Assembly (NCBI GenBank): GCA_964020085.1
Contig: OZ026599.1
Coordinates: forward strand, 30,769,974-30,833,973
Reading direction: 5' to 3'
Length of the DNA stretch: 64,000 nucleotides
DNA from: Micromussa lordhowensis
Taxonomy: Eukaryota; Cnidaria; Anthozoa; Scleractinia; Lobophylliidae
The position numbers were made by a program, and so were the translations under genes. Shown here in pieces: positions 3,458 to 46,741 of the stretch. Numbering within the stretch: position 1 is the stretch's first letter; the number at the start of each line of letters is the position of its first letter. The notes below the pieces were generated by a model, which did no database searches, was not told the origin of the DNA, and worked only from the letters and a program-made list of their open reading frames with translations.

Positions 3458-3812
3458 CTATAAATATCTACGTTCTTTGAATTTTTGAAGCCAATTTGCA
3501 GCCATCCCACAGCGGCGACCGCAATTTCGTGAGTTTTCCATATCGCTGCTGAAGCGCTTTTTATCGCTTCCGATATACCGTAAACTGATATCTCGTAAAC
3601 ACATTCTTGGCATATTCGAAGCCCATTTGCAGCCTTTCGGAAGCGCTGATCGTGATGTCAAATCGCTGTTTAAAGCTGCTACATGGCTGCCCGTGGCAGC
3701 TTTAAGCAGCTAAAATTTGTGACTGCTGCAGCCAGCCACTTCACAGCGGTTTTGTAGCGCTTCCTGAAGCTGTTCTGCAGGGCTGTAACAGCGCTGCCCA
3801 TTTCGTACGGGT
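3458..3812. repeat. Two diverged ~130-bp direct repeats, hairpin-rich
   Basis: The words GAAGCCAATTTGCAGCC (about 3487) and GAAGCCCATTTGCAGCC (about 3618) begin two similar segments about 130 bp apart, each preceded by an ATATCT-containing lead. The right part (3670-3800) is rich in GCAGC/GCTGC words that can pair with one another. It ends where the 5S-like unit resumes at AGAAATAAAA. It is probably a non-autonomous element fragment; the family is not recognised. Confidence 0.45.
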
Positions 3813-3836
3813 AGAAATAAAAAAAAACTATGTTGA

Positions 3837-3959
3837 GCGTGAAATCCATATACCCCAACGACCGCATCGCGTATCGTCTGATCAACGAAGTTAAGCCCTG
3901 TTCGGCGGGGTTCTTACTTGGCTGGGTGACCGAATGTGAATACCCCGTGTAGTAATAAT
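3837..3959 (+). rRNA. 5S-rRNA-like sequence (copy 2)
   Basis: Collinear with eukaryotic 5S rRNA over most of its length: a CCATATACC lead, TCGTCTGATC, box A-like GAAGTTAAGCC, and box C-like TACTTGGCTGGGTGACCG followed by GAATACC. The internal promoter order is therefore kept, and a T-rich tract (TTTCTTTTTTCC) follows. The helix formed by CGGGGT and ACCCCG differs from the usual 5S sequence on both strands but still pairs. The terminal helix is not of normal 5S form. It is either a degenerate 5S gene or the head of a 5S-derived repeat; function is doubtful. Confidence 0.6.
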
Positions 3960-5374
3960 TTCTTTTTTCCTTTTCCTTTTTCCCTTTCCCTTTCCAGATC
4001 GATATCAAAGACTATAGATCTCTTAGTTCTGTGTGATGTCTTTCCTTCTATTCATCAGTTATTTTTATCATATAACTCTTGCCGTGTTTCTGGCCTGCCA
4101 AATTGCAGCATGATCAAGATAAGTTCAAAGTTCAACAACTCGATTAACTTCACATTGAGAACCATGTCATCTAGATAGTTTTTGTTTGGCCAGTATATCT
4201 CTAGAGATTTCAAAGTTAAATACGCCATTTGAAGGCTAGGTGGTGTAGAGTCCATATTCGATAACGATTTAAAGGCCAAAATACGTTAAACAACAAAAAA
4301 GGCATGCCGCATTTCACTAGTTACTACGGTCGAATTGAAACATGGTTCATTTATCACTTAAATTCACAGTGCTTACCGACTTGACCACAACTTCTACAGT
4401 GTTGTAAGTTAAATACGCAAATTGAAAGCTAGATAAATGTAGATTTCGCAGTACGTAACGACTTAAGGGCTAAGATGCGTCAAACGGTGAAAACATCACG
4501 ACATCTATCTTACTGTAGGTTCCGCGGTCGAATTACAACACAATTCATTTATTGTTGAAAATCACAATGCCAACCGACTATATTAAAAAGTTTTTCTCCA
4601 TTTCAACTCCACAGATTTCTCAGTTTAAGATGTCATTTGAAAGCTAAGTAAATGCGAATTCCGAAGTATACATCGACTTATAAAATAGGAAACTGGCGAG
4701 AATTATAACTCATAAGTTTTCGCTTATAATAAACGCTTCTATATAGTTTTAAAATAATCGTCCTTTCAACAGAAGGCGCTAGAGATCAAATCACATAACT
4801 GCTTCTTTCCTGATTTCAATGGTCTCTTGGAACGCTTAAAGTTTTCTTGATTTTCTTCGCTCGTTCAAAACTAAGATAGGAATTTCAACAAACACGTGCA
4901 GCCTATTATCTTGTCGAGCGGTTTGACAATTTTAACAATCAACAGTATAACATTGTATTTGGGTCACGCTCATTACCGATTCGGCGGGGATATTTGGTAC
5001 CTCGTGAAAACCGAAAATAAATACGAAAGACTGATATTTCAGTGAACCAATAGGCGGAAAAATATTATCCCTAGAAATACGTTTCTGGAGGTGGTGCGAA
5101 GTATCTCCTAGGCTCAACTAAAGTTGGCCGAGATGTCATTTCAAACCGCTTGAGAGGCCAAAATCATGATGTGGTGATATCCTTCCATTGCCTCATGCGG
5201 GTAGGGAGAGTATGATCGCTCCATTGATATAAGGTTTTGTATGTACACATGAGATATAAAACTGATTTTTGCTAAGGCACGGGGTATCAATTCCAGGCAC
5301 AGGCTTCGAGATTTGTTTTATCCCTCTTTGTTATCCTTTAGGAGATCCTAGAAATAAAAAAAAAACTATGTTGA

Positions 5375-5497
5375 GCGTGAAATCCATATACCCCAAGGAC
5401 CGCATAGCGTATCGTCTGATCAACGAAGTTAAGCCCTGTTCGGCGGGGTTCTTACTTGGCTGGGTGACCGAATGCGAATACCCCGTGTAGTAATAAT
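5375..5497 (+). rRNA. 5S-rRNA-like sequence (copy 3)
   Basis: Nearly identical to copy 2; GCATAGCG replaces GCATCGCG. Internal control region words and the downstream T-tract are kept. The same doubt about function applies, because the 5' end does not pair with the 3' end in the usual 5S way. Confidence 0.6.
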
Positions 5498-6918
5498 TTC
5501 TTTTTTCCTTTTCCTTTTTCCCTTTCCCTTTCCAGATCGATATCAAAGACTATAGATCTCTTAGTTCTGTGTGATGTCTTTCCTTCCATTCATCAGTTAT
5601 TTTTTCATATAACTCTTGCCGTGTTTCTGGCCTGCCAAATTGCAGCATGATCAAGATAAGTTCAAAGTTCAACAACTCGATTAACTTCACATTGAGAACC
5701 ATGTCATCTAGATAGTTTTTGTTTGGCCAGTATATCTCTAGAGATTTCAAAGTTAAATACGCCATTTGAAGGCTAGGTGGTGTAGAGTCCATATTCGATA
5801 ACGATTTAAAGGCCAAAATACGTTAAACAACAAAAAAGGCATGCCGCATTTCACTAGTTACTACGGTCGAATTGAAACATGGTTCATTTATCACTTAAAT
5901 TCACAGTGCTTACCGACTTGACCACAACTTCTACAGTGTTGTAAGTTAAATACGCAAATTGAAAGCTAGATAAATGTAGATTTCGCAGTACGTAACGACT
6001 TATAGGCTACGATACGTCAAACGGTGAAAACATCACGACATCTATCTTACTGTAGGTTCCGCGGTCGAATTACAACACAATTCATTTATCGTTGAAAATC
6101 ACAATGCTAACCGACTATATTAAAAAGTTTTTCTCCATTTCAACTCCACAGATTTCTCAGTTTAAGATGTCATTTGAAAGCTAAGTAAATGCGAATTCCG
6201 AAGTATACATCGACTTATAAAATAGGAAACTGGCGAGAATTATAACTCATAAGTTTTCGCTTGTAATAAACGCTTCTATATAGTTTTAAAATAATCGTCC
6301 TTTCAACAGAAGGCGCTAGAGATCAAATCACATAACTGCTTCTTTCCTGATTTCAATGGTCTCTTGGAACGCTTAAAGTTTTCTTGATTTTCTTCGCTCG
6401 TTCAAAACTAAGATAGGAATTTCAACAAACACGTGCAGCCTATTATCTTGTCGAGCGGTTTGACAATTTTAACAATCAACAGTATAACATTGTATTTGGG
6501 TCACGCTCATTACCGATTCGGCGGGGATATTTGGTACCTCGTGAAAACCGAAAATAAATACGAAAGACTTCTATTTCAGTGAACCAATAGGCGGAAAAAT
6601 ATTATCCCTAGAAATACGTTTCTGGAGGTGGTGCGAAGTATCTCCTAGGCTCAACTAAAGTTGGCCGAGATGTCGGCCATTTCAAACCGCTTGAGAGGCC
6701 AAAATCATGATGTGGTGATATCCTTCCATTGCCTCATGCGGGTAGGGAGAGTATGATCGCTCCATTGATATAAGGTTTTGTATGTACACATGAGATATAA
6801 AACTGATTTTTGCTAAGGCACGGGGTATCAATTCCAGGCACAGGCTTCGAGATTTGTTTTATCCCTCTTTGTTATCCTTTAGGAGATCCTAGAAATAAAA
6901 AAAAAAAAACTATGTTGA

Positions 6919-7042
6919 GCGTGAAATCCATATACCCCAAGGACCGCATCGCGTATCGTCTGATCAACGAAGTTAAGCCCTGTTCGGCGGGGTTCTTACT
7001 TGGCTGGGTGACTGAATGCGAATACCCCGTGTAGTAATAATT
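6919..7042 (+). rRNA. 5S-rRNA-like sequence (copy 4)
   Basis: Same structure as its neighbours with one box C change (GTGACTGAA for GTGACCGAA). It is preceded by a slightly longer A-run. It lies 1544 bp after copy 3. Confidence 0.6.
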
Positions 7043-8464
7043 TCTTTTTTCCTTTTCCTTTTTCCCTTTCCCTTTCCAGATCGATATCAAAGACTATAGA
7101 TCTCTTAGTTCTGTGTGATGTCTTTCCTTCCATTCATCAGTTATTTTTTCATATAACTCTTGCCGTGTTTCTGGCCTGCCAAATTGCAGCATGATCAAGA
7201 TAAGTTCAAAGTTCAACAACTCGATTAACTTCACATTGAGAACCATGTCATCTAGATAGTTTTTGTTTGGCCAGTATATCTCTAGAGATTTCAAAGTTAA
7301 ATACGCCATTTGAAGGCTAGGTGGTGTAGAGTCCATATTCGATAACGATTTAAAGGCCAAAATACGTTAAACAACAAAAAAGGCATGCCGCATTTCACTA
7401 GTTACTACGGTCGAATTGAAACATGGTTCATCAGTTTATCACTTAAATTCACAGTGCTTACCGACTTGACCACAACTTCTACAGTGTTGTAAGTTAAATA
7501 CGCAAATTGAAAGCTAGATAAATGTAGATTTCGCAGTACGTAACGACTTATAGGCTACGATGCGTCAAACGGTGAAAACATCACGACATCTATCTTACTG
7601 TAGGTTCCGCGGTCGAATTACAACACAATTCATTTATCGTTGAAAATCACAATGCTAACCGACTATATTAAAAAGTTTTTCTCCATTTCAACTCCACAGA
7701 TTTCTCAGTTTAAGATGTCATTTGAAAGCTAAGTAAATGCGAATTCCGAAGTATACATCGACTTATAAAATAGGAAACTGGCGAGAATTATAACTCATAA
7801 GTTTTCGCTTGTAATAAACGCTTCTATATAGTTTTAAAATAATCGTCCTTTCAACAGAAGGCGCTAGAGATCAAATCACATAACTGCTTCTTTCCTGATT
7901 TCAATGGTCTCTTGGAACGCTTAAAGTTTTCTTGATTTTCTTCGCTCGTTCAAAACTAAGATAGGAATTTCAACAAACACGTGCAGCCTATTATCTTGTC
8001 GAGCGGTTTGACAATTTTAACAATCAACAGTATAACATTGTATTTGGGTCACGCTCATTACCGATTCGGCGGGGATATTTGGTACCTCGTGAAAACCGAA
8101 AATAAATACGAAAGACTTATATTTCAGTGAACCAATAGGCGGAAAAATATCATCCCTAGAAATACGTTTCTGGAGGTGGTGCGAAGTATCTCCTAGGCTC
8201 AACTAAAGTTGGCCGAGATGTCGGCCATTTCAAACCGCTTGAGAGGCCAAAATCATGATGTGGTGATATCCTTCCATTGCCTCATGCGGGTAGGGAGAGT
8301 ATGATCGCTCCATTGATATAAGGTTTTGTATGTACACATGAGATATAAAACTGATTTTTGCTAAGGCACGGGGTATCAATTCCAGGCGCAGGCTTCGAGA
8401 TTTGTTTTATCCCTCTTTGTTATCCTTTAGGAGATCCTAGAAATAAAAAAAAAAACTATGTTGA

Positions 8465-8588
8465 GCGTGAAATCCATATACCCCAAGGACCGCATCGCGT
8501 ATCGTCTGATCAACGAAGTTAAGCCCTGTTCGGCGGGGTTCTTACTTGGCTGGGTGACCGAATGCGAATACCCCGTGTAGTAATAATT
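8465..8588 (+). rRNA. 5S-rRNA-like sequence (copy 5)
   Basis: Last copy of the array, 1546 bp after copy 4, with an intact box A-like/box C-like core and downstream T-tract. Sequence downstream of it (about 8750-9566) is more diverged from the other units than the core is. Confidence 0.6.
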
Positions 8589-8826
8589 TCTTTTTTCCTT
8601 TTCCTTTTTCCCTTTCTCTTTCCAGATCGATATCAAAGACTATAGATCTCTTAGTTCTGTGTGATGTCTTTCCTTCTATTCATCAGTTATTTTTTCATAT
8701 AACTCTTGCCGTGTTTCTGGCCTGCCAAATTGCAGCATGATCAAGATAAGTTCAAAGTTGAACAACACGATTAACTTCACATTGGTAACCATGTCACATA
8801 AATAGTTTTTGTTTGGCAAGTATCTC

Positions 8827-9530
8827 TCTAGAGATTTCCAAGTTAAATACGCCATTTGAAAGCTAGGTGGGCGTTGAGTCCGCATTCGATAACGATTTAG
8901 AGGCCAAAATACGTTAAACAACAAAACATCATGCCGCATTTCACTAGTTACCGCGGTCGAATTGAAACATGGTTCATTTATCGCTTAAATTCACAGTGCT
9001 AAGCGACTTAAATAAAAAGAATTTATTCTCCACTACAACTCAACAGACCTCTAAGTTAAATACGCCATTTAAAAGCTAGATAGATGTAGATTGTGCAGTA
9101 TGTTACGATTTAGAGGCTACAATACGTTAAACGCCCAAAACATCTTGCCGTATTTCACTGTAGTTTCCACGCTCAAATTGTAGAACGATTCATTTATCAT
9201 TGAAATTCACCATGGTAATCTACTTGAGTAGTTAATTTTTTCCACTACAACTCCACAGATTTCTAAGTTAAATTCGTCAAGATATATCAATGTAGAATTT
9301 GTAGTACATAACGATTAATAGGCTAAGATACTTCAAATGGCAAAAACATCACGCCATATTTTACTGTCGGTTCCGTCGTCGAATCACAACACAATTCAAT
9401 TATCGTTGAAATTCACAATGCTAGCCGATCATAGTAAAAACAGTTTTTTCCATTACTAGTCCACAAATTTCCAAGTTTAAGATATCATTTGAAAGCTAAG
9501 TAAATGCAAACTCCGCAGAATGCGGCGAGA
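8827..9530 (+). repeat. Internal ~210-bp subrepeats of the 1.54 kb unit
   Basis: The phrase AAGTTAAATACGCCATTTGA, or a diverged form of it, recurs near 8830, 9050, 9262 and 9468. Each is followed by an AGCTAGATAAATGTAGA-like word, a CACGCCAT/CATGCCG word and a CGGTCGAATT-like word. The same four-step pattern is visible in the other units, for example near 1029, 1169 and 1376. The unit is therefore itself built from older tandem repeats. Confidence 0.7.
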
Positions 9531-10422: not shown

Positions 10423-10524
10423 TGGAGGTGGGTGGGGTGGCTGCAAAAGGAGCGAAAGGAATAAGCGCTCCAGTGGAGGTGGGTGGGGTGGCAGGAGAAG
10501 CAGCGAAAGGAATAAGCGCGTGAG
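10423..10524 (+). repeat. Two 51-bp direct repeats bordering the minisatellite
   Basis: TGGAGGTGGGTGGGGTGGC begins at 10423 and again at 10474. Both copies run on through AGCGAAAGGAATAAGCGC with a few differences. They abut the left edge of the 15-bp array, and the words GAGCGAA/CAGCGAA resemble part of the 15-bp unit. Confidence 0.85.
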
Positions 10525-10530: not shown

Positions 10531-13500
10531 GAGAGCGAACCCTAACAGAGCGAACCCTAACAGAGCGAACCCTAACAGAGCGAACCCTAACAGAGCGAAC
10601 CCTAACAGAGCGAACCCTAACAGAGCGAACCCTAACAGAGCGAACCCTAACAGAGCGAACCCTAACAGAGCGAACCCTAACAGAGCGAACCCTAACAGAG
10701 CGAACCCTAACAGAGCGAACCCTAACAGAGCGAACCCTAACAGAGCGAACCCTAACAGAGCGAACCCTAACAGAGCGAACCCTAACAGAGCGAACCCTAA
10801 CAGAGCGAACCCTAACAGAGCGAACCCTAACAGAGCGAACCCTAACAGAGCGAACCCTAACAGAGCGAACCCTAACAGAGCGAACCCTAACAGAGCGAAC
10901 CCTAACAGAGCGAACCCTAACAGAGCGAACCCTAACAGAGCGAACCCTAACAGAGCGAACCCTAACAGAGCGAACCCTAACAGAGCGAACCCTAACAGAG
11001 CGAACCCTAACAGAGCGAACCCTAACAGAGCGAACCCTAACAGAGCGAACCCTAACAGAGCGAACCCTAACAGAGCGAACCCTAACAGAGCGAACCCTAA
11101 CAGAGCGAACCCTAACAGAGCGAACCCTAACAGAGCGAACCCTAACAGAGCGAACCCTAACAGAGCGAACCCTAACAGAGCGAACCCTAACAGAGCGAAC
11201 CCTAACAGAGCGAACCCTAACAGAGCGAACCCTAACAGAGCGAACCCTAACAGAGCGAACCCTAACAGAGCGAACCCTAACAGAGCGAACCCTAACAGAG
11301 CGAACCCTAACAGAGCGAACCCTAACAGAGCGAACCCTAACAGAGCGAACCCTAACAGAGCGAACCCTAACAGAGCGAACCCTAACAGAGCGAACCCTAA
11401 CAGAGCGAACCCTAACAGAGCGAACCCTAACAGAGCGAACCCTAACAGAGCGAACCCTAACAGAGCGAACCCTAACAGAGCGAACCCTAACAGAGCGAAC
11501 CCTAACAGAGCGAACCCTAACAGAGCGAACCCTAACAGAGCGAACCCTAACAGAGCGAACCCTAACAGAGCGAACCCTAACAGAGCGAACCCTAACAGAG
11601 CGAACCCTAACAGAGCGAACCCTAACAGAGCGAACCCTAACAGAGCGAACCCTAACAGAGCGAACCCTAACAGAGCGAACCCTAACAGAGCGAACCCTAA
11701 CAGAGCGAACCCTAACAGAGCGAACCCTAACAGAGCGAACCCTAACAGAGCGAACCCTAACAGAGCGAACCCTAACAGAGCGAACCCTAACAGAGCGAAC
11801 CCTAACAGAGCGAACCCTAACAGAGCGAACCCTAACAGAGCGAACCCTAACAGAGCGAACCCTAACAGAGCGAACCCTAACAGAGCGAACCCTAACAGAG
11901 CGAACCCTAACAGAGCGAACCCTAACAGAGCGAACCCTAACAGAGCGAACCCTAACAGAGCGAACCCTAACAGAGCGAACCCTAACAGAGCGAACCCTAA
12001 CAGAGCGAACCCTAACAGAGCGAACCCTAACAGAGCGAACCCTAACAGAGCGAACCCTAACAGAGCGAACCCTAACAGAGCGAACCCTAACAGAGCGAAC
12101 CCTAACAGAGCGAACCCTAACAGAGCGAACCCTAACAGAGCGAACCCTAACAGAGCGAACCCTAACAGAGCGAACCCTAACAGAGCGAACCCTAACAGAG
12201 CGAACCCTAACAGAGCGAACCCTAACAGAGCGAACCCTAACAGAGCGAACCCTAACAGAGCGAACCCTAACAGAGCGAACCCTAACAGAGCGAACCCTAA
12301 CAGAGCGAACCCTAACAGAGCGAACCCTAACAGAGCGAACCCTAACAGAGCGAACCCTAACAGAGCGAACCCTAACAGAGCGAACCCTAACAGAGCGAAC
12401 CCTAACAGAGCGAACCCTAACAGAGCGAACCCTAACAGAGCGAACCCTAACAGAGCGAACCCTAACAGAGCGAACCCTAACAGAGCGAACCCTAACAGAG
12501 CGAACCCTAACAGAGCGAACCCTAACAGAGCGAACCCTAACAGAGCGAACCCTAACAGAGCGAACCCTAACAGAGCGAACCCTAACAGAGCGAACCCTAA
12601 CAGAGCGAACCCTAACAGAGCGAACCCTAACAGAGCGAACCCTAACAGAGCGAACCCTAACAGAGCGAACCCTAACAGAGCGAACCCTAACAGAGCGAAC
12701 CCTAACAGAGCGAACCCTAACAGAGCGAACCCTAACAGAGCGAACCCTAACAGAGCGAACCCTAACAGAGCGAACCCTAACAGAGCGAACCCTAACAGAG
12801 CGAACCCTAACAGAGCGAACCCTAACAGAGCGAACCCTAACAGAGCGAACCCTAACAGAGCGAACCCTAACAGAGCGAACCCTAACAGAGCGAACCCTAA
12901 CAGAGCGAACCCTAACAGAGCGAACCCTAACAGAGCGAACCCTAACAGAGCGAACCCTAACAGAGCGAACCCTAACAGAGCGAACCCTAACAGAGCGAAC
13001 CCTAACAGAGCGAACCCTAACAGAGCGAACCCTAACAGAGCGAACCCTAACAGAGCGAACCCTAACAGAGCGAACCCTAACAGAGCGAACCCTAACAGAG
13101 CGAACCCTAACAGAGCGAACCCTAACAGAGCGAACCCTAACAGAGCGAACCCTAACAGAGCGAACCCTAACAGAGCGAACCCTAACAGAGCGAACCCTAA
13201 CAGAGCGAACCCTAACAGAGCGAACCCTAACAGAGCGAACCCTAACAGAGCGAACCCTAACAGAGCGAACCCTAACAGAGCGAACCCTAACAGAGCGAAC
13301 CCTAACAGAGCGAACCCTAACAGAGCGAACCCTAACAGAGCGAACCCTAACAGAGCGAACCCTAACAGAGCGAACCCTAACAGAGCGAACCCTAACAGAG
13401 CGAACCCTAACAGAGCGAACCCTAACAGAGCGAACCCTAACAGAGCGAACCCTAACAGAGCGAACCCTAACAGAGCGAACCCTAACAGAGCGAACCCTAA

Positions 13501-15390
13501 CAGAGCGAACCCTAACAGAGCGAACCCTAACAGAGCGAACCCTAACAGAGCGAACCCTAACAGAGCGAACCCTAACAGAGCGAACCCTAACAGAGCGAAC
13601 CCTAACAGAGCGAACCCTAACAGAGCGAACCCTAACAGAGCGAACCCTAACAGAGCGAACCCTAACAGAGCGAACCCTAACAGAGCGAACCCTAACAGAG
13701 CGAACCCTAACAGAGCGAACCCTAACAGAGCGAACCCTAACAGAGCGAACCCTAACAGAGCGAACCCTAACAGAGCGAACCCTAACAGAGCGAACCCTAA
13801 CAGAGCGAACCCTAACAGAGCGAACCCTAACAGAGCGAACCCTAACAGAGCGAACCCTAACAGAGCGAACCCTAACAGAGCGAACCCTAACAGAGCGAAC
13901 CCTAACAGAGCGAACCCTAACAGAGCGAACCCTAACAGAGCGAACCCTAACAGAGCGAACCCTAACAGAGCGAACCCTAACAGAGCGAACCCTAACAGAG
14001 CGAACCCTAACAGAGCGAACCCTAACAGAGCGAACCCTAACAGAGCGAACCCTAACAGAGCGAACCCTAACAGAGCGAACCCTAACAGAGCGAACCCTAA
14101 CAGAGCGAACCCTAACAGAGCGAACCCTAACAGAGCGAACCCTAACAGAGCGAACCCTAACAGAGCGAACCCTAACAGAGCGAACCCTAACAGAGCGAAC
14201 CCTAACAGAGCGAACCCTAACAGAGCGAACCCTAACAGAGCGAACCCTAACAGAGCGAACCCTAACAGAGCGAACCCTAACAGAGCGAACCCTAACAGAG
14301 CGAACCCTAACAGAGCGAACCCTAACAGAGCGAACCCTAACAGAGCGAACCCTAACAGAGCGAACCCTAACAGAGCGAACCCTAACAGAGCGAACCCTAA
14401 CAGAGCGAACCCTAACAGAGCGAACCCTAACAGAGCGAACCCTAACAGAGCGAACCCTAACAGAGCGAACCCTAACAGAGCGAACCCTAACAGAGCGAAC
14501 CCTAACAGAGCGAACCCTAACAGAGCGAACCCTAACAGAGCGAACCCTAACAGAGCGAACCCTAACAGAGCGAACCCTAACAGAGCGAACCCTAACAGAG
14601 CGAACCCTAACAGAGCGAACCCTAACAGAGCGAACCCTAACAGAGCGAACCCTAACAGAGCGAACCCTAACAGAGCGAACCCTAACAGAGCGAACCCTAA
14701 CAGAGCGAACCCTAACAGAGCGAACCCTAACAGAGCGAACCCTAACAGAGCGAACCCTAACAGAGCGAACCCTAACAGAGCGAACCCTAACAGAGCGAAC
14801 CCTAACAGAGCGAACCCTAACAGAGCGAACCCTAACAGAGCGAACCCTAACAGAGCGAACCCTAACAGAGCGAACCCTAACAGAGCGAACCCTAACAGAG
14901 CGAACCCTAACAGAGCGAACCCTAACAGAGCGAACCCTAACAGAGCGAACCCTAACAGAGCGAACCCTAACAGAGCGAACCCTAACAGAGCGAACCCTAA
15001 CAGAGCGAACCCTAACAGAGCGAACCCTAACAGAGCGAACCCTAACAGAGCGAACCCTAACAGAGCGAACCCTAACAGAGCGAACCCTAACAGAGCGAAC
15101 CCTAACAGAGCGAACCCTAACAGAGCGAACCCTAACAGAGCGAACCCTAACAGAGCGAACCCTAACAGAGCGAACCCTAACAGAGCGAACCCTAACAGAG
15201 CGAACCCTAACAGAGCGAACCCTAACAGAGCGAACCCTAACAGAGCGAACCCTAACAGAGCGAACCCTAACAGAGCGAACCCTAACAGAGCGAACCCTAA
15301 CAGAGCGAACCCTAACAGAGCGAACCCTAACAGAGCGAACCCTAACAGAGCGAACCCTAACAGAGCGAACCCTAACAGAGCGAACCCTAA
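10531..15390 (+). repeat. 15-bp minisatellite with telomere-like motif, 324 copies
   Basis: The unit CAGAGCGAACCCTAA is repeated 324 times (4860 bp). Reading the block line by line shows no substitution or length change; only the first base of the first copy differs. Each unit contains CCCTAA, the complement of the animal telomere repeat TTAGGG. Because 15 is a multiple of 3, several frames on both strands stay open for the whole length (RANPN on +, LGFAL and VRVRS on -). These are by-products, not proteins. At the right edge GAACCC-TAAGTC-GGGTTC forms a small hairpin. Copy number depends on how the assembler treated the block. Confidence 0.97.
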
Positions 15391-15520
15391 GTCGGGTTCC
15401 TTTCTGTAGGGTAGTGAAAACTCCAAAAAATATCACATTTGCGCAAGCAAAGCATGGCGTGAATAACTCTCTGGTACACAGATGAATAAAATAGGACTTT
15501 GGTTTCCAAAACCTAACAGA

Positions 15521-15538
15521 CTTCTTTTCTTCCCACAG
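15521..15538 (+). other. Probable 3' splice site before the recombinase exon
   Basis: A strong pyrimidine tract ends in TTCTTTTCTTCCCACAG at 15538, inside the open frame that runs on into the recombinase. This suggests the mature exon starts at 15539. In that case the upstream residues of the open frame (15482-15538) are intron, and a short upstream exon may exist beyond it, possibly on the far side of the minisatellite. Confidence 0.5.
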
Positions 15539-15574
15539 GTAACTTTCCAAAGTCAGCACTCTGGTTCCGAAGAA

Positions 15575-17776
15575 ATGCTCGCACCCCAACGGCGTAAAAT
15601 CGAACCAGTATCATGTCATGGAAGTCTCTACTTTGTCTTCGTTGAGGTCTGTGATAAACTCTTTCCTCACATTCCAAGAGCTACCATTAAAAGTAGGATG
15701 AGAAATCTCGGTCTTAAGCTAGTGAAGGCGCCTCAAGAAATTCTGGACAAGCTGAGAACTGCCAGACCTTACTTGGCTTGTTACAAGGTGCTGTCGCTAA
15801 TTTCCAAGCGAGAAGTTGCGATTCTCGAGGCTTACCAAGATTCACGCGAAGAAAGAAGAGAAAATTCTAGAAAAAATTCTGGACCGTTCTTAACTAATGC
15901 TAGTGTTAATGATAGTAACTACACACAGGGGGTAGAGCAGTCTGGAGAGGAAGTTTTTTTAAGGGATAAGGTACAAGACACTATGCCTCCCAAAAAACAT
16001 GGGTTTAGTAGCAGTTTCTTGGTAGAAAATCTCTTGAATGCCGCTTGTCCGGAAAGTTTAGCCGTCGAAAAGCCGTTGACTGGGTTTTCAGACTCGCAGG
16101 AACAAATGGAAATAGTCGATAGGCAGATTTCCTCGGATTCGGAACCCGAGCTCAGTGATTTCTCGCCCAGCGATAGCAATTTGGAGTCGTCATCCGGGGA
16201 AGAAAGCGGTGGCGAACAAGATAATGATATTGTTGAGCTCTTTAAGAAAAAAAATCTAGATATAGATTCGTTTCCTGGCGTCGTTAAACGTTTAAGTGAG
16301 ATGAAGGAATTCTTTCAAACAGACTTCAATTCTAAGCGCAGGCAGTCGAAAATATCCGATGTGACGTGGGCGAAAACGTTGGAACGGTTAGTGATCTTTT
16401 TAGCTTATTGTTCGCGCACGTTAGAGCGAGATATGCGATTGGAATTGGTGGAAGATATGAATATCGTGGAATCCTTCATCAAGCACATAAAGCAAAGCCG
16501 GCGCGTTAAAAACAACACTGCTGCTGCTTATGTAACGTGCTTCATAAAGGCTGCAAAATTCCTGCGTGCCAACGAGAATCGCAGCAATTACGACGCAGTG
16601 GAAAGCATATCTGATCTTCGCGCCCTTCAGAACCAACTTATGCGAGAACACGCTGTTTTAGAATCTACCAAAGGACCTGAGAAGAGACGGCTTTTTTGGC
16701 CTCAGCTCCAAGAATTAACACGTTCCCTTCATCAACAGTTTGAGGATGAAATAGACGACCTTCAGCAGAAGGCACGGCTGCACATGAATTTCACACTCTT
16801 GTTACTTTTCGCGATAAATCCAGGTCGTGCTAAAGAGTTCAGAACCCTGCGCATCGTTAGAGATATCCCAGAGAGCGAAATTGACCTTCTCGTCAGAAAA
16901 TTACCGAGCGGAGAGAATTTTATGGTCTTTGGGAAAAATGGAGTCACACGTCTTGTAGAAAAAGGTTACAAAACCGTAAAAAGATATGGTTCGAATGTAA
17001 TAGAGATTAGTGAATTTGATTTCGTGGATTTTCATCTTAAGCGCTACGTCGAACGGTCGCGACCAAAGCTCGTACCCCGGGGCTGTATGCACGACTTCTT
17101 CTTCGTCAACAAACGAGGTTCACCATTTAAGTCACCAGGATCTTTCTCCAGTTACTTGGCGAAAATCTTTCGGGAGAATCTCGGCTTTCATTGCACAATG
17201 AACGAGATGCGACACGCCTTGGTGGAGAACTTTAGGTCTAGCAAAGAGAGTTCCGATGTACAGTTGGCAGAGAGCTTAGCTCGTGTCTGCAAGCACAGTT
17301 TGCGCACTCAAATAAAGGTATACGACCAAAGAAGTCAGCAGGAAAGAACGAAGCGCGCCTTGTATTACCTTAATCAATCAGCAGTTAACGCCATAGTTGA
17401 TGACGCTCCAGGTACATCTTACAATGCTGACGACGAATCGGACGATTCGTTAGGGGAAGAAAGTTACCCACCCGCTCCTGGAGAGATCTGCGCGCTTATC
17501 CCCGCGGACGCACGCGCTGCAACGTCTGAGATTTTCTTGGCTAAGGTTTTAAAGTACAGTTCAGACGGTCAGACCGTGCGCTTAGCGTGGCTGCAACAGG
17601 TAGAAGGAAAGCCAAACCACTACAAGTTTCAGGTTGGCCATTCGGCCTGGGAAGAAAAGATTTCGAGTCTGATTTACCCACTGGACGTCAGCTATAATCG
17701 AAACGAAGGCAGCTATGAGCTTAGGAGTCCCAAGGAAGAGATTTATCAACAACTGCGATCAGCTGTTTCTGTCTAG
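15575..17776 (+). CDS. Tyrosine recombinase, Crypton/DIRS-like, with N-terminal SKI/DAC-like domain
   Basis: A 733-residue protein from the ATG at 15575; the open frame extends upstream to 15482, but a splice acceptor lies in between. Residues ~12-87 (CHGSLYF ... LISKREVAILEAY) resemble a SKI/SNO/DAC-type DNA-binding fold. An acidic Ser/Glu linker spans ~183-217. A helical core-binding region lies at ~259-345, followed by a tyrosine recombinase catalytic domain with Arg418 in NPGRAKEF, Arg546 in MNEMRHAL, and His574 and nucleophile Tyr583 in KHSLRTQIKVY. His-to-Tyr spacing is nine, as in XerD-type enzymes. The first His of the HxxR box is Asn543. A C-terminal beta-rich SH3/BAH-like segment spans ~632-719. 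Such enzymes cut and rejoin DNA through a covalent tyrosine link and mobilise Crypton or DIRS elements. No reverse transcriptase is adjacent, so Crypton-type is favoured; a domesticated host gene is possible. The frame is intact. Confidence 0.8.
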   Translation: MLAPQRRKIEPVSCHGSLYFVFVEVCDKLFPHIPRATIKSRMRNLGLKLVKAPQEILDKLRTARPYLACYKVLSLISKREVAILEAYQDSREERRENSRKNSGPFLTNASVNDSNYTQGVEQSGEEVFLRDKVQDTMPPKKHGFSSSFLVENLLNAACPESLAVEKPLTGFSDSQEQMEIVDRQISSDSEPELSDFSPSDSNLESSSGEESGGEQDNDIVELFKKKNLDIDSFPGVVKRLSEMKEFFQTDFNSKRRQSKISDVTWAKTLERLVIFLAYCSRTLERDMRLELVEDMNIVESFIKHIKQSRRVKNNTAAAYVTCFIKAAKFLRANENRSNYDAVESISDLRALQNQLMREHAVLESTKGPEKRRLFWPQLQELTRSLHQQFEDEIDDLQQKARLHMNFTLLLLFAINPGRAKEFRTLRIVRDIPESEIDLLVRKLPSGENFMVFGKNGVTRLVEKGYKTVKRYGSNVIEISEFDFVDFHLKRYVERSRPKLVPRGCMHDFFFVNKRGSPFKSPGSFSSYLAKIFRENLGFHCTMNEMRHALVENFRSSKESSDVQLAESLARVCKHSLRTQIKVYDQRSQQERTKRALYYLNQSAVNAIVDDAPGTSYNADDESDDSLGEESYPPAPGEICALIPADARAATSEIFLAKVLKYSSDGQTVRLAWLQQVEGKPNHYKFQVGHSAWEEKISSLIYPLDVSYNRNEGSYELRSPKEEIYQQLRSAVSV

Positions 17777-17954
17777 GATTGCATCGAAACTCGTGCGCGC
17801 CCCAATCGTTTCCTAAATCTAGAGTCGTTATAACAATTCGTCCGTGTACCTCTACCCGTTGCATTTAAAGTTGTGTAGACGAGCAATATATACCAGTGAG
17901 CAGAGAAATATCGAGTTTTTTAGCTGAATTCACAAAGTCCAGACCCATAATATA

Positions 17955-18254
17955 ATGGATAAGAAACGCAAAAATGTCCAGAGGGATAAACAGCGTCTAC
18001 AAACGTTTCTGCAGACTAAGTGTTTAATTTGTTATACTCCTGGGCCAGTGCCTTCTCGGAGGCTTCCATGTTGCAAGGTTTTTATGCACGAGAGCTGTTT
18101 GCTTAAGTGTTTTGAGCATGCGAGTACTAGTAAAAGAAAGTGCCCCCATTGTAGACAGGAAATTTATCCCATTAATAAAGGGGAACTCGAACCTTCGTGC
18201 ATTCCGGAGGGAGTTTTCTTATTTCGGTTAGAATTTGAAACCATATATTTGTGA
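17955..18254 (+). CDS. Small RING-finger protein, copy 1 (truncated C-terminus)
   Basis: A 99-residue protein with a basic start (KKRKNVQRDKQR) and one RING-type zinc finger: CLIC at residues ~23-26, then RRLPCCKVFMHESCLLKCF, then KCPHCRQEI. The Cys/His order (C-x2-C ... CC-x4-H-x2-C ... C-x2-C) fits a cross-brace RING in which the usual Gly-His after the third ligand is Cys-Lys. RING proteins usually act as E3 ubiquitin ligases; no substrate domain is visible. The start is AATATAATGG, 178 bp after the recombinase stop. After FET the frame ends at once (IYL), where copy 3 instead continues, so this copy looks C-terminally truncated by the duplication. It differs from copy 2 at residue 2 (Asp for Gly). 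Confidence 0.7.
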   Translation: MDKKRKNVQRDKQRLQTFLQTKCLICYTPGPVPSRRLPCCKVFMHESCLLKCFEHASTSKRKCPHCRQEIYPINKGELEPSCIPEGVFLFRLEFETIYL

Positions 18255-18892
18255 TGCTTTTTTCGAATTTATCTGCCTCAACATGATGTTTTCTCAAACC
18301 TATATGACGCTGAATGGAAGACCATTCGTGTCAAATCAGCCATACGGATTGCTCGCTGTACTGAAAACCCAAGTCAAAACAAAATGAAATGTCGTGTCAA
18401 ATCAAATGGAGGGTTGCTTGAGTTCGTTCGGACAAAACAAGAGATTTTCTCAGTTATAATACTGTATTTCCTTGAACTAGCGTCCTGAACATCAATTTCA
18501 AGTCTCGCCTTTTTCGACTTTAAAAATCACAAATTTACACCAGCTCACATCCTGTATCTTGACATTGTCCGGCCAATGGACGTCACGTAACATTTTCTTA
18601 CCTGTTTGTAGTAAGCTGTTATTAGGATGCCTAGTTAAGGAAATGTGGTATTAAACTCACCCAGCATTTAATCGGAAAACTCTGTTGATTCTCGTCTTAA
18701 TGTATACAGAATACAGTTAAGCTGTCCAGAACGTTCTTGTTTTATTTGTGATTCAGAGACAACTAATGATTGGTAATTTCTGACTGTCCCGAGGACGTAC
18801 TTTCCCATATGGAAATTATAGAGGGAATCCTGTCAGAATATTAATTCTGACCCTTTTTGTTTTTTTCTGTGTTTTTTGAGAATCCATTACTG
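18255..18892. other. Non-coding part of the 1 kb duplicated unit
   Basis: No gene is seen here. The same sequence recurs at 19255-19892 with almost no change. It contains no obvious splice acceptor linking the RING ORF to a downstream exon. Confidence 0.5.
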
Positions 18893-18954
18893 CCAGTGAG
18901 CAGAGAAATATCGAGTGTTTTAGCTGAATTCACAAAGTCCAGACCCATAATATA

Positions 18955-19254
18955 ATGGGTAAGAAACGCAAAAATGTCCAGAGGGATAAACAGCGTCTAC
19001 AAACGTTTCTGCAGACTAAGTGTTTAATTTGTTATACTCCTGGGCCAGTGCCTTCTCGGAGGCTTCCATGTTGCAAGGTTTTTATGCACGAGAGCTGTTT
19101 GCTTAAGTGTTTTGAGCATGCGAGTACTAGTAAAAGAAAGTGCCCCCATTGTAGACAGGAAATTTATCCCATTAATAAAGGGGAACTTGAACCTTCGTGT
19201 ATTCCGGAGGGAGTTTTCTTATTTCGGTTAGAATTTGAAACCATATATTTGTGA
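18955..19254 (+). CDS. Small RING-finger protein, copy 2 (truncated C-terminus)
   Basis: A 99-residue near-duplicate of the preceding gene, exactly 1000 bp downstream, with all zinc ligands kept and Gly at residue 2. It ends in the same truncated FETIYL tail. Silent changes (for example GAACTT for GAACTC) separate it from copy 1. The upstream ~60 bp is also duplicated, so any proximal promoter within it would be shared. It could be an expressed paralogue or a by-product of tandem duplication. Confidence 0.7.
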   Translation: MGKKRKNVQRDKQRLQTFLQTKCLICYTPGPVPSRRLPCCKVFMHESCLLKCFEHASTSKRKCPHCRQEIYPINKGELEPSCIPEGVFLFRLEFETIYL

Positions 19255-19954
19255 TGCTTTTTTCGAATTTATCTGCCTCAACATGATGTTTTCTCAAACC
19301 TATATGACGCTGAATGGAAGACCATTCGTGTCAAATCAGCCATACGGATTGCTCGCTGTACTGAAAACCCAAGTCAAAACAAAATGAAATGTCGTGTCAA
19401 ATCAAATGGAGGGTTGCTTGAGTTCGTTCGGACAAAACAAGAGATTTTCTCAGTTATAATACTGTATTTCCTTGAACTAGCGTCCTGAACATCAATTTCA
19501 AGTCTCGCCTTTTTCGACTTTAAAAATCACAAATTTACGCCAGCTCACATCCTGTATCTTGACATTGTCCGGCCAATGGACGTCACGTAACATTTTCTTA
19601 CCTGTTTGTAGTAAGCTGTTATTAGGATGCCTAGTTAAGGAAATGTGGTATTAAACTCACCCAGCATTTAATCGGAAAACTCTGTTGATTCTCGTCTTAA
19701 TGTATACAGAATACAGTTAAGCTGTCCAGAACGTTCTTGTTTTATTTGTGATTCAGAGACAACTAATGATTGGTAATTTCTGACTGTCCCGAGGACGTAC
19801 TTTCCCATATGGAAATTATAGAGGGAATCCTGTCAGAATATTAATTCTGACCCTTTTTGTTTTTTTCTGTGTTTTTTGAGAATCCATTACTGCCAGTGAG
19901 CAGAGAAATATCGAGTGTTTTAGCTGAATTCACAAAGTCCAGACCCATAATATA

Positions 19955-20353
19955 ATGGGTAAGAAACGCAAAAATGTCCAGAGGGATAAACAGCGTCTGC
20001 AAACGTTTCTGCAGACTAAGTGTTTAATTTGTTATACTCCTGGGCCAGTGCCTTCTCGGAGGCTTCCATGTTGCCAGGTTTTTATGCACGAGAGCTGTTT
20101 GCTTAAGTGTTTTGAGCATGCGAGCACTAGTAAAAGAAAGTGCCCCCATTGTAGACAGGAAATTTATCCCATTAATAAAGGGGAACTCGAACCTTCGTGC
20201 ATTCCGGAGGGAGTTTTCTTATTTCGGTTAGAATTTGAAACGTTCCGCGCTATTAAGTCTCTTGCTGAGATAGCAGATGAGCTTTGGGATTACTTGCCTA
20301 GCCTGATACCGCCTCCTGGGTGGTCAGAGTATCGAAGAATGCATAGGAGATAG
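19955..20353 (+). CDS. RING-finger protein, copy 3 (full-length form)
   Basis: 132 residues: the same RING module as the two upstream copies, with Lys-to-Gln in CCQVF. After FET it continues with FRAIKSLAEIADELWDYL and PPPGWSEYRRMHRR instead of stopping. The extra ~33-residue tail has an amphipathic helix-like part and a Pro/aromatic part, so this is probably the parental gene end. A presumed E3 ligase-like role rests on the RING alone. It is followed by A/T-rich non-coding sequence. Confidence 0.7.
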   Translation: MGKKRKNVQRDKQRLQTFLQTKCLICYTPGPVPSRRLPCCQVFMHESCLLKCFEHASTSKRKCPHCRQEIYPINKGELEPSCIPEGVFLFRLEFETFRAIKSLAEIADELWDYLPSLIPPPGWSEYRRMHRR

Positions 20354-21580
20354 CCAGTTTATGAAGAGGTTTAAATTGTCGACTCTATTTTTACATTTTT
20401 TAGAATATTTTCAATATATTATAAAACAACTTAGCATCTTTATATCATTTTATATACTTTATAACTTAGTCTTTTTAAACGTTTCGTAGTTTCGCTATTA
20501 ATAGGTTTTCTGGTATATATAACCATTGTATAGCTATTATCCTAAGAAGAATCAAACGCGTTCAGAGTTTCAAATGTGTCAATAGCTGATGACAGAGATA
20601 ATGGGACGATTTCTGTGTGATCGATGTAGATGAACAGACGAAACAATTTGATTCGTTTCGCGAACGTAGTTAACGGCGTGAAGTCAAGGCTTGGTCCAAT
20701 ATAGTTCTTCCCGAGAACGTAAAACAGTATTTTTCAAGGTCATACAGAAATCGCCCTACGAATTGTTTTTGTGATCATCATAATCATAGGAATTTGCCCT
20801 TCGACCCAGAAAATGATCAATATGGTGTTTTTTCGTCACTGTCTTGAGACTAATCTTACTTTATTGCGTTGGCTGAAGATTTTGTCTTTTTAAAGGGTCT
20901 ATTTTGGTGTTTTTAATGCCATTTTCAACGCTTATCTGTTTTTTTCAATTGTGGCGCACTGAACAGGGACATCTGTTATCTTTTATCCTTCAAGCAAATG
21001 GCTTTAGACAGTGAGAAAAATTTAGGTATTGATCATAGGGGTTAAGATAGAGACAAAAACGTTTTCCATTTAGAGACGACTCGGTATTAAATAGCCTAAG
21101 CGTTGTTATCTTATCTTCTTGTGGTCTGCAATGTAAAGCTTACTGAGTTCTAGGAATTAAATAGTGTTGAAAAGACAGTTTGTATCAACAATTTTTGTGA
21201 TTTTTTCAGGAGAGTAATGGTGTTATGACATCAGACTAGCTTAGATCACCCGACCAACCTCGGTTTCAGGATGTAAATTTGAAATTTTATCATGAACTTT
21301 TTCCCAAAGCAGCTATGAAGGTTTGAGAACGTGTCGCGCAAACGAAGCCTTGGTGGTGAATTTTTGAGCAAGTCACGTAATCACGTGAAATGGGGTAACG
21401 CATCTTTGAACTCCTTTGTTTTCTTTGCCTGCTTGCCGGGTTATTACGCTTGTTATACCGATCGTCGGATAAATTAGCCATCTCTGAAGCCCTTCCTATT
21501 TCCTAAACCCTGCCATCCGTTCCAGACTCGGAAATTGTCCCCTTTGTCACGTTCGCCATTCTAGCAACAGCACTTGGCAA
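20354..21580. other. No feature recognised
   Basis: A/T-rich sequence downstream of the third RING gene. No ORF with recognisable content, no tandem repeat and no tRNA-like signal were seen. Confidence 0.4.
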
Positions 21581-22465: not shown

Positions 22466-23220
22466 TTCAAATCCTAAATCTATTGTAGGCATTGCGTGAC
22501 ACTCTCCTTGCCGGTTTGGTGAGTCAAAGCATTCATATGAAGAAAAGTTGTCCCGCTTGTCCCAGCTTCTAGCTGGATTATTTCTGCAAGTTGATCTTTT
22601 CTCTTTCCGGAACTTGGATATAGACGTATCTTTTAATTTGATATTATCCTACAATAAAATGTGTACAGTACTGTGTATTTGACTTAATTTACAGTTACCC
22701 TGCTAAGGCGGGATTTAACATGAAGGTCGTATTTTGGCTGGGTATTAAGGTTTTAACGCAAATATCTCGTTCGCGTTTCAAGCATTTAAAAGTCTCTCTG
22801 CTCATCCCAGATACCTTCGCCTTGAGTTGTATTTAACCTTTTTTTTAATGAATTTTGGGTATTTTGATATTTGGGGTTTTCTCAAAGGGTAAGTGAAATT
22901 GATGTTATGTTATTGTTTTCTCGTATTGAAGTCAGTTGTGTTTTAAACATTCGGTTCTTTCTCAAAAACAAAAATGTGACCAGGCGCCCATTTCTCGAAA
23001 GATCCGGTAACTTCACGGGCCCGAAATCAGATTTGGAAATCGAAATCTCAAGAAAAGTAGGGTGTGTTGTGAACTCTAACAAAGTCCATTTTGTTTCTTT
23101 AGCTAATAACTTTACTGCATAATATTTAAAGCTTTTGAAACTCCCATCTGGAATGGAAAACAAAACAACTTAACGGGCCTGGTAATTACCGGGAGCCCCA
23201 GCTTCCACATAGCCCCCAGT
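22466..23220. other. No gene recognised
   Basis: Overlapping open frames on opposite strands at 22871-23163 have no domain and no codon bias that would favour either. Nothing else was seen. Confidence 0.35.
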
Positions 23221-23318
23221 AGGCTTCATAGCTCAGAGCACTGCACCAGTATCGCTGAGGCCATAGGTTCGAATCCCGTTCAGGCCTGTTTTGTTTTGTT
23301 TTGTTTTTTTTTTTCAGC
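23221..23318 (+). repeat. tRNA-derived SINE head with TTTTG tail
   Basis: 23221-23287 has a tRNA layout: box A-like TAGCTCAGAGCA, box B GGTTCGAATCCC, and a first stem in which AGGCTT pairs with the terminal GGCCT (one G-T pair). It is about 67 nt long, short in the D-loop for a working tRNA, and the anticodon stem is poor, so no amino acid is assigned. GTTTTG repeats and a T-run follow directly. It is best read as a SINE or tRNA pseudogene. Confidence 0.7.
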
Positions 23319-25451: not shown

Positions 25452-25651
25452 NNNNNNNNNNNNNNNNNNNNNNNNNNNNNNNNNNNNNNNNNNNNNNNNN
25501 NNNNNNNNNNNNNNNNNNNNNNNNNNNNNNNNNNNNNNNNNNNNNNNNNNNNNNNNNNNNNNNNNNNNNNNNNNNNNNNNNNNNNNNNNNNNNNNNNNNN
25601 NNNNNNNNNNNNNNNNNNNNNNNNNNNNNNNNNNNNNNNNNNNNNNNNNNN
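25452..25651. other. Assembly gap (200 N)
   Basis: Exactly 200 N, a typical arbitrary scaffold-join length. The true distance between the four-exon gene and the LINE fragment is unknown. Confidence 0.99.
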
Positions 25652-26889
25652 CATATGCTCCCTCTTGCCTGTTGCGGATGAATTTGTGAAGGAGTTAAAT
25701 CGACTAGTTTACAAATTCTTGTGGAATGGACCAGATAAGACAACTCGTCTTTCTACAATTAACGATTACGCCAAAGGCGGTTTAAGAATGATTGACCTAG
25801 ATTGTATGATTAAATCTTTGCGTTTGGCCTGGCTACATAGGATATATAATGTCACGAAAGGCCCAAACAAAGTGCGGAGGCCTGTTCTTGTTTAACTGTA
25901 ATTACGATGTTAAGGACATCTCGGTTCCTTCTCTATTTTACTCTCAACTTTTAAAATGGTGGTCAGATTTTCGGGAAGACTTTGCTTCTGCAAAGGACTG
26001 GCAAAATATAATATGGAATAATCGGGATATTCGTATAGACGGCAGTCCAGTTTTCTATAAAAATTTCTTCCTTTCAGGTGTAGTGTACCTGAGGGATCTC
26101 CTTTTAAATTGCAATAATATCGATTCCTTTGAGATTGCTGCAAGGAACATAGAAAAATCTAATTTTCTTATCTGGACGGGCCTTCGGGACTCCATTCCTT
26201 TCCACCTGAAGGACAATAACACAAGTACATCTCCGTCTTCTACTATACCATCTTTCTCCACAGGCAATGGTGACGAGGTATTTTGTGTGAACCAAAAAAA
26301 GTCAAGGGATTATTATTCACTACTTATTAGCAAAAAAGCCAAACTACCTAATGCAATCACCATTCTTCATAGGGATTTCAACCTATCAGAAAAGCAACTG
26401 CAACAAGCCTTTTCACTCCCACATATAGTTGCTCTTGAACCTTACGTCAGAGCTTTTCAGTATAAAGTACTTAATAGAATCCTTTATACAAATGAGAAGC
26501 TCTACAAAATTGGTTTTATTTCACACAAAGATTGTACCTTTTGTAAAAGCGCATCAGAAACTTTAACCCATTTGTTGTACCACTGTCCCTTCTCGATAGC
26601 ATTTTGGAAGGATTTTGAATGGTACTGGTCAGTGGTAAAAGATGAGCAAATTCATCTAGCATTAGAGGATATCATAGTGGGCGTCATAACAAGACCATGC
26701 CCCTTACTAAACTACTTTTTACTGATTGCAAAGATTTACTTGTGGGACTGTAGAAGAAACCAAACTTTGCCAAATATCGTTGGATTTAAGACTAAAATTG
26801 AACTCAAGTATGAAACAGAAGCATACATTGCACGAAAAGGCAATAATATAAAATTTCTACAATCGAAATGGGCAAATTGCTTTCTTTAA
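25652..26889 (+). pseudogene. LINE ORF2 C-terminal fragment, frameshifted
   Basis: The first frame (to about 25875) carries the RT thumb-type segment FLWNGPDKTTRLSTINDYAK with GGLRMIDLDCMIKSLRLAWL. Homology continues in another frame from GGLFLFNCNYDVKD to the stop at 26889, so one indel lies at about 25865-25880. A C-terminal zinc knuckle is seen at CTFCKSASETLTHLLYHC, followed by FW, as in L1/Tx1-group proteins. The endonuclease and catalytic RT motifs are absent, so it cannot move on its own. Confidence 0.8.
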
Positions 26890-40080: not shown

Positions 40081-40206
40081 AATGGGTGGGGCTTTGTCGA
40101 ACACTTGAACATCGACGATACATGTCTGAACAATTACAAACTCCATCTTAACAAGAAAGGTATTGCTATTTTAGCGAGTAATTTTGTAAATAATATAGTC
40201 CATTGA
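40081..40206 (+). pseudogene. ORF1 C-terminal remnant (SGNH esterase-like)
   Basis: An open frame without a start that reads NGWGFVEHLNIDD and then NNYKLHLNKKGIAILASNF up to the TGA at 40204. The LHLN-KKG element followed by a LA-NF helix is the usual end of the SGNH-hydrolase-like domain in ORF1 of CR1/L2-group elements. Only the last 41 residues survive because of 5' truncation. Confidence 0.65.
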
Positions 40207-40281
40207 TATGATCCTTGCTTAATAACTGTGGCGACACCTGATCTCACTACCTCCCCTAGTGCCCGGATCAGGTCAACCCTA

Positions 40282-43131: not shown

Positions 43132-43338
43132 TATCTTAGTTGCAAGTAACACCTTAATTTTAAGTATATTTTAGACACCGCCTCCATGAAAAGCAGGATT
43201 TTTATTTATTTTTATTTGAATTGTTACTAATAAATTTTATTGTAGTTAGGTAGATAGATACATTATTATAGATAATTAACTTAATTTACTGATGGAAATA
43301 CCGTGTATAAATAAAGTTATCGTATCGTATCGTATCGT

Positions 43339-45073: not shown

Positions 45074-45098
45074 AGGGAACTTAAGCATCGACGACGAA
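45074..45098 (+). repeat. Left terminal inverted repeat of the Harbinger element
   Basis: AGGGAACTTAAGCATCGACG plus GACGAA, flanked by the AAT target duplicate. It pairs perfectly with 48985-49009. Confidence 0.93.
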
Positions 45099-45255
45099 CT
45101 GGATGACGACGACTTTTCATGTCCGTGAAAGACTGGGGAGACGGTTTCGCTTTCGGCGGGAAAACTAAAAGTTAAGCAGCCGTTCTTAAAAAAAGACGAC
45201 GAAACTTTCTGTACGTGCGATAATTAATGAAAGTTTTCTGCCTTTATGCGGGTTT

Positions 45256-46741
45256 ATGGCTTTTAGCGACGTCCGTAATTTTCTTCTTATAAGCCGTGCT
45301 GATGGTATCATCGATGATGAAGAATTTATTGTGCTTTACGACCTTTATTCTTCGAAAGATCCGGATTTTCCATACGATCATTACACAGCTTTCGACCTTG
45401 ATGCGCTCGATGAATCAGAATGTGTAGCAAAGTTTCGTTTTTGTAAACGGGATGTACGAAAGTTATCAAACGTTCTGCAGATTCCAGACACCATAATCTA
45501 CAATCAACGGTCCATTTGTGACGGCATGGAAGGTCTTTGCATACTACTGAAGCGAATGTCTTACCCGTGTAGATATGGAGATATGATTCACAAGTTTGCT
45601 AAACCCGTGCCAGTTCTGAGTATGATTAATAACCACACGATTGACTACATTTATGATACTCATGGACATAAGGTACTGAACTGGAATCATGAAATTCTTA
45701 GTCCTGTTAACCTCCAAACGTATGTTAATGCTATAACAGCCAAGGGAGCTCCACTGGACAACTGCTTTGGGTTCATTGACGGAACGGTAAGACCTATTTC
45801 ACGCCCCGGAGAACACCAAAGAATTCTTTACAATGGCCATAAGCGGGTACACGCCCTCAAGTTTCAAAGCATAGCACTGCCAAATGGTATCATAGGAAAT
45901 CTGTATGGCCCGGTTGGTAAGTAACAGCCAATATAACTGAATTTGAACTTCAAGCATTTGGATTGCTTAGGGTGTACTTAGTTGCTTTAATGAACTTGCA
46001 ACTCTCATGTGCAAGCTGTACTTGACTTATTTTTAACATATTTCCTAAAAGGGGCATATCCTATTAACTGTAAAATGGTTGTTCATGTAAATTTATGCTC
46101 CTTTAGTTTAACGAAAATATCCAACGAGAACCCCCCCCCCCCCCCAATCCCTAGACCACCATGCCTGCAGTCATTTAATAAAATATGTAGTCAAACAAAT
46201 CACCTGCCATCCAAGTACTGACCCTACTTTACACATCCCCATCACTTCCTCCCTGTCAAAAATACACCTCAATGCTGTTCCTATTCATTTTTTTACCTAA
46301 CGTCTAATATGATATCTGTCCATTTTTAGAAGGAAGAAAACATGATGCTGGCATGCTTGCTGACTCAAGGTTGCTTGATGACTTGGAGCAGTTTGCTTTT
46401 AATCCAGCTGGCCAGCCCCTCTGTGTCTATGGTGACCCAGCTTACCCACTACGAATACATCTTCAACAACCCTTCAAGTATGGTGTTCTTACTCCCCAAT
46501 GGAGGAATACAACCACAGAATGAGTGCTGTCAGGACTTCTGTAGAGTGGCTCTTTGGAGATGTAGTAAATTCATTTAAATTCAATGACTTTAAAAAAAAT
46601 TTGAAGATCTTTCTTAACAGTGTTGGAAAGATTTATGTAGTTTCTGTGATACTTCAAAATGCACTGACATGTTTGTATGGAAACCTGACCTCCACTTTTT
46701 TTGAGCTCACACCACCAAGACTTGAAGATTATTTTGCTTAG
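45256..46741 (+). pseudogene. Harbinger transposase (DDE_Tnp_4 type), two exons, one frameshift
   Basis: Exon 1 is 45256-45916 and exon 2 is 46330-46741. The 413-bp intron has GTAAGT and TTTTTAG ends in phase 1, and joining restores the family hallmark YGPVEGRKHDAGML. Catalytic positions: Asp175 in GFIDGTVRP, Asp256 in VYGDPAYPLR, and Glu in SVEWLFG (codon 46544-46546). Exon 2 changes frame at about 46494-46500 (CCCCAATGG): upstream homology is in the frame reading LTPQ, downstream in the frame reading EYNHRMSAVRTSVEW. Loss of one base, perhaps in the C-run, would explain it, so this copy is either dead or miscalled by one base. The enzyme cuts and pastes the element together with the SANT/Myb partner. 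The intron contains a poly-C run at 46131-46145. Confidence 0.88.

Follow-up and report, generated by a model that had tools for sequence, protein, structure and literature searches.

The window, by which we mean the whole 64,000-nucleotide stretch analysed here (C5:30769974-30833973, in an assembly of 580.8 Mb and 1383 contigs), carries a long array of 15-bp units, the open reading frame (ORF) of a probable tyrosine recombinase and three tandem copies of a RING-finger ORF (Table 1). On scaffold C5 the array is situated at ~30.78 Mb and is bordered by other DNA on either side, which indicates an internal position in the chromosome.

Table 1. Features of the array and its surroundings, in positions of the window
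Feature	Position	Strand	Details
Left shoulder: 51-bp unit, 1.9 copies	10423..10519	+	Tandem-repeat program TRF; each copy with run GGAGGTGGGTGGGGTGG
15-bp minisatellite array, unit AGAGCGAACCCTAAC	10532..15390	.	323 full copies + 14 bases, no variant
Right shoulder: degenerate inverted copy of 15-bp unit	15391..15412	-	Alignment and fold prediction
Probable tyrosine-recombinase ORF, stop to stop	15467..17776	+	First ATG 15482; ORF and relatives
Tandem duplication with RING ORF	17893..20241	+	1000-bp spacing, 98.6-99.3% identical
RING-finger ORF copy 1, 99 aa	17955..18254	+	ORF
RING-finger ORF copy 2, 99 aa	18955..19254	+	ORF
RING-finger ORF copy 3, 132 aa	19955..20353	+	zf-RING_2 23.7 bits, under Pfam cut-off 27.3

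To the left of the array, a tandem duplication of ~1.54 kb (3812-9269) is present in 3-4 copies that are 87-96% alike, and diverged pieces of it occur within 1-1500. The three RING-finger copies are spaced by exactly 1000 bp; 11 relatives at 58-86% identity were found for this ORF, and none was confirmed in the collection viral_contigs. A 29-nt inverted pair (17886-17914 and 20492-20520, 72% complementary), possibly a product of chance, lies around these copies. Further to the right, a stretch at 23220-23290 (GGTTCGAATCCC) looks tRNA-like by eye and is perhaps derived from a SINE; ARAGORN reported 0 tRNA. An ORF at 25810-26889 with a zf-RVT (reverse-transcriptase zinc-binding) match is followed by a poly-A run and then by a 219-bp satellite, and we therefore read it as the end of a non-LTR element. 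The 219-bp satellite fills 27292-64000 with 136 matches to one unit on a single strand (mean identity of copies over 200 bp, 96.2%) and is interrupted by mobile-element inserts. One of these is a non-LTR retrotransposon (~40082-43338) with an ATCGT-repeat tail and an open endonuclease/reverse-transcriptase ORF of 974 aa (40207-43131). Another, at ~45074-49009, is bounded by inverted ends (GGGAACTTAAGCATCGACGACGA) and matches DDE_Tnp_4 weakly (E 0.028 and 0.0062); we take it to be, perhaps, a Harbinger-like DNA transposon.

Extent and purity of the array

The tandem-repeat program and a script run on the window agreed on an exact period-15 run of 4,859 bases (10532 to 15390), which the program reported as period 15, 323.9 copies (323.93 units), 100% matches and no indels. 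Only 15 different 15-mers were counted within it by the script, all of them rotations of AGAGCGAACCCTAAC. The original prediction that there is no base change in 4.86 kb is thereby borne out for the assembled sequence, and the units are identical as it had claimed; its figure of 324 repeats starting at 10531 has to be adjusted to 323 full copies plus 14 bases starting at 10532, since base 10531 is a G where the period would demand a C. CCCTAA occurs once per unit and also forms the last bases of the array, directly followed by GTCGGGTTCC. Minisatellites are built of head-to-tail units of roughly 10-60 bp, and the 15-bp units here are arranged in the same manner. Four stop-to-stop frames of 1653-1736 aa are open in the array because 15 is divisible by 3 and those frames hold no stop, and the array was accordingly rejected as a protein-coding repeat.

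No Rfam family matched at the gathering score. The paired 15-mer had 0 matches in viral_contigs and 0 in genome_contigs, which says little since these collections consist of viruses or prokaryotes. A text search for pieces of the 15-mer did not find it in print, apart from five papers whose titles point to unrelated subjects, in a literature where repeats are seldom printed in that form and with few subscription journals covered.

Other copies in the assembly

In the whole assembly, a 30-mer of two units had 322 overlapping matches on the strand of the window (+) and 462 on the opposite strand, and the reversed-pattern control had 0 matches on either strand. The first number is the one expected from 323 units, so by count all + strand matches should come from this array, while the 462 opposite-strand matches indicate that the 15-mer forms one or more further arrays. 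The search for other blocks of the 15-mer that had been proposed as a check was thus positive. All 100 matches listed for each two-unit search fall in this array, and if the matches are listed in contig order, as is apparent, the opposite-strand copies seem to lie beyond it. A 30-mer across the right edge of the array occurred a single time in the assembly with up to 3 mismatches allowed, which argues against explaining the 462 matches by an allelic duplicate, save for one that is interrupted within the array.

These counts also bear on whether the array could be an assembly or polishing artefact, that is, a real minisatellite that is shorter or more varied and has been stretched or levelled to one consensus. 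Complete purity across 4.9 kb is unusual in our judgement, and the scaffold, which extends for >30 Mb, seems to have been assembled from modest contigs, given that the contig under which the proteins of the window are recorded is 63,144 bases long; there is also a 200-N gap at 25452-25651. However, no N lies within or adjoining the array, its right edge is unique, and hundreds of two-unit matches elsewhere speak against a one-off accident at this locus. The 219-bp satellite of the same window has, moreover, retained its variants. We regard an artefact of this kind as unlikely.

Age of the array

As a clock for the array, we used the 1-kb duplication that carries the RING ORF (17893-20241), in which ~10 differences were counted over 1349 bases, on the assumption of equal mutation rates. 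Were the array of the same age, 18.0 changes would be expected, and 0 were seen (P 1.5e-8); if the divergence is taken from the 219-bp satellite instead, the expectation rises to ~93. The array should therefore be at most ~1/6 of the age of the duplication at 95%, or have been kept uniform, or have been levelled during assembly. Of the three causes originally offered for the uniformity, recent amplification and homogenisation both fit these numbers, and expansion during assembly is the third that they allow.

Edges of the array

The GGAGGTGGGTGGGGTGG runs of the left shoulder fit a simple two-G G-quadruplex pattern, as judged by pattern match. A degenerate copy of the unit in the left flank was rejected, its score being reached by 34.8% of shuffles, 9.6% of random places and 222 of 3918 45-mers. 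On the right, where an inverted copy had been noticed before it was tested, the 22 bases next to the array aligned to the reverse complement of the unit with a score of 18, which was reached by 1 of 500 shuffles, 0 of up to 300 random places and 2 of 3918 overlapping background 45-mers. Together with the last units of the array, this right shoulder is predicted to form a hairpin, with a fold z of -2.64 and an equally good fold in 1 of 200 shuffles. A sequence common to both flanks was likewise rejected, as they share just one weak 19-bp match (E 0.43).

Likeness to telomere repeats

Nine consecutive bases of each unit (AACCCTAAC) are identical to (CCCTAA)n sequence, and the other 6 of the 15 are non-telomeric. 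At least 9 telomeric bases were found in 11 of 40,000 random 15-mers of window composition and in 11 of 40,000 shuffles of the unit (2.75e-4 each), a post hoc probability, as the likeness had been noticed before the calculation; at least 6 were found in 2.8% and 3.2%, respectively. Neither CCCTAACCCTAA nor TTAGGGTTAGGG occurs in the 64-kb window, so that the unit is better described as a telomere-like variant word than as telomere tract, and a canonical interstitial telomere array was rejected for the same lack of consecutive hexamers. Outside the array, the window has 3 further CCCTAA and 3 TTAGGG.

The cnidarian telomere repeat is given as TTAGGG in one report (PMC10235076), and together with the 9 bases shared by each unit, this is what favours an origin in which a seed of telomeric DNA, captured in break repair or added by telomerase, was later altered to the 15-mer and amplified. 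The post hoc nature of the probability, the absence of canonical tandem hexamers from the window and the position of the array ~30.78 Mb into the scaffold all stand against such an origin. The suggestion that the array comes from telomere sequence is thus permitted by the shared bases; we give it a slim chance and note that the telomeric likeness of the unit may reflect either the seed or coincidence.

The neighbouring recombinase gene

The first ATG of the recombinase ORF lies 92 bases to the right of the array end. One relative, P0002, begins at the Met of MLAPQ, and an acceptor-like ttcttttcttcccacag seen by eye ends at 15538 within the ORF. In the relative P0025, the stretch upstream of the P0002 start codon also translates to a similar peptide, and conservation therefore seems to extend to 15482. 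The relatives P0002-P0017 and P0020 come from other sources and are 97.1-100% alike among themselves and 92-93% alike to the recombinase of the window. No relative was confirmed in viral_contigs or genome_contigs, the virus and prokaryote collections.

An N-terminal core-binding (SAM-like) domain, as expected of a tyrosine recombinase, was found in the protein. Among the 17 aligned of 41 listed proteins, R449, R577 and Y614 are invariant, H605 is nearly so, and Asn574 is invariant at the usual position of the HxxR His; the assignment of these five residues to the catalytic boxes of tyrosine recombinases is our own. The presumed catalytic domain was spanned by 10 of the first 29 structural matches listed, at rmsd 8.6-10.3, in a model of mean pLDDT 61 that is at its lowest there, and a Foldseek search found nothing at E<=0.001. 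Searches of solved structures by sequence with the single protein returned none at E<=1; profile matches to four MBD4 chains (E 0.14-1.5) were taken as chance. Pfam searches with 17 members of the family gave matches to 8 Pfam families at E<=1, and DUF3504 was not one of these. In the full-length model (pLDDT 57.5), a C-terminal beta-rich part is predicted at residues ~669-747 with block means of 54-81, and is perhaps Tudor-like. The protein appears to combine a SKI/Dachshund-like part at its N terminus with a part resembling a tyrosine recombinase and with this C-terminal part.

The array is directly upstream of the recombinase gene and by position might influence its transcription. It is also conceivable that the array is the 5' region of a recombinase element and moves along with it, serving as a set of promoter monomers or of binding sites, and the short distance of 92 bases to the first ATG, the conservation that seems to reach 15482, the many near-identical family members from other sources and the inverted unit copy at the array edge would all agree with this. 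The junction of array and right flank is, however, single in the assembly, even with up to 3 mismatches, and no convincing element ends were found, the flanks sharing only the weak 19-bp match; we hold this to be decidedly unlikely.

The original prediction had also offered the array as a landing site for the recombinase element. A precedent for integration into such repeats comes from some nimaviruses that carry a tyrosine recombinase, which are described as inserting into (TAACC/GGTTA)n with the repeat on their flanks (PMC10871703), and the recombinase ORF here directly adjoins the array. Within the window, the claim is unsupported, since the repeat is present on one side of the gene only: outside the array, GCGAACCC, AACCCTA and TAGGGTT occur at 0, 1 (position 40275) and 0 places, respectively, which leaves no second repeat block between the gene and the right end of the window at 64000. 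The right-edge junction, too, occurs only once in the assembly. We consider integration into the repeat highly improbable.

A broader possibility is that the 15-mer constitutes a telomere-like satellite dispersed over separate loci, where one common process maintains or spreads its identical copies. An example of such a process would be recombination at the repeat by the neighbouring recombinase family, from which array growth would follow as a side effect. The recombination site would then comprise the GAACCC core, present once per 15 bp of array, and the inverted half-site at the edge. We think this reading very unlikely.

Discussion

We prefer to read the array as a minisatellite within the chromosome whose 15-bp units have been multiplied, or made uniform, very recently, and we put the probability of this reading at roughly 0.6. 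It is favoured by the perfect period, the internal position, the 0 changes against 18.0 expected and the 462 opposite-strand matches with a control of 0, with length and purity taken as they are read from the assembly. We tentatively place the array as a further case of the known minisatellite or short-satellite type, with a 15-mer that we did not find in print.

Such a minisatellite would have started locally from a short seed, perhaps one with the 9 telomere-like bases, and the seed could have grown via strand slippage, template switching or unequal exchange. Replication forks that stall at the hairpin or the G-rich shoulders, or alternatively at telomere-repeat-binding proteins on the TAGGGTT core, may have aided growth, and turnover faster than mutation would keep the units identical. 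The vertebrate TRF site requires a purine after TAGGGTT, whereas the base that follows in the array unit is C. In yeast, interstitial human telomere repeats are described as expanding through replication forks that are bound by Tbf1/Vid22 and slowed (PMC9272169), and our extension of this mechanism to a coral array is by analogy. For interstitial telomere repeats in general, a review names unequal crossing-over, gene conversion, replication slippage and rolling circle (PMC6410037).

The array resembles those interstitial telomeric sequences in its internal position, its telomere-like core and the growth mechanisms proposed (PMC6410037). According to the same review, they often adjoin mobile elements and satellites, a likeness that we draw to the array. 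In contrast to them, it has no canonical hexamer run and 6 of the 15 bases of each unit are non-telomeric. Among corals, a study of Porites describes a 188-nt satellite with a palindromic telomeric sequence, not detected by its authors outside Porites (PMC10236652). That satellite is likewise a tandem coral repeat with telomere-like sequence in intergenic regions, but its unit is 188 nt and not 15 nt, and its telomere motif is palindromic where ours is one 9-base match.

The recombinase gene beside the array recalls the endogenous nimavirus recombinases, where a tyrosine recombinase also lies beside telomere-like repeats (PMC10871703); here, however, the array is one-sided within the window and non-canonical, and the likeness is one of description and not of protein sequence. 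Crypton transposons offer another comparison, as these too have an animal tyrosine recombinase gene and the gene here is plausibly mobile, and the study of animal Cryptons did not find terminal repeats in them either (PMC3212892). Unlike animal Cryptons, which are described there as lacking a C-terminal domain, the protein of the window has the C-terminal beta-rich part, and it also differs from Cryptons as presented in that source by its N-terminal SKI/Dachshund-like part.

If real at such purity, the array would offer an unobscured natural example of how a short repeat grows, at a stage when mutation has yet to leave traces in the copies, and with its telomere-like sequence and two edge features it holds elements that can be tested as aids to growth. 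Plain hexamer counting would take such arrays for telomere signal. Should the recombinase use the repeat, the array would be a recombinase-made satellite.
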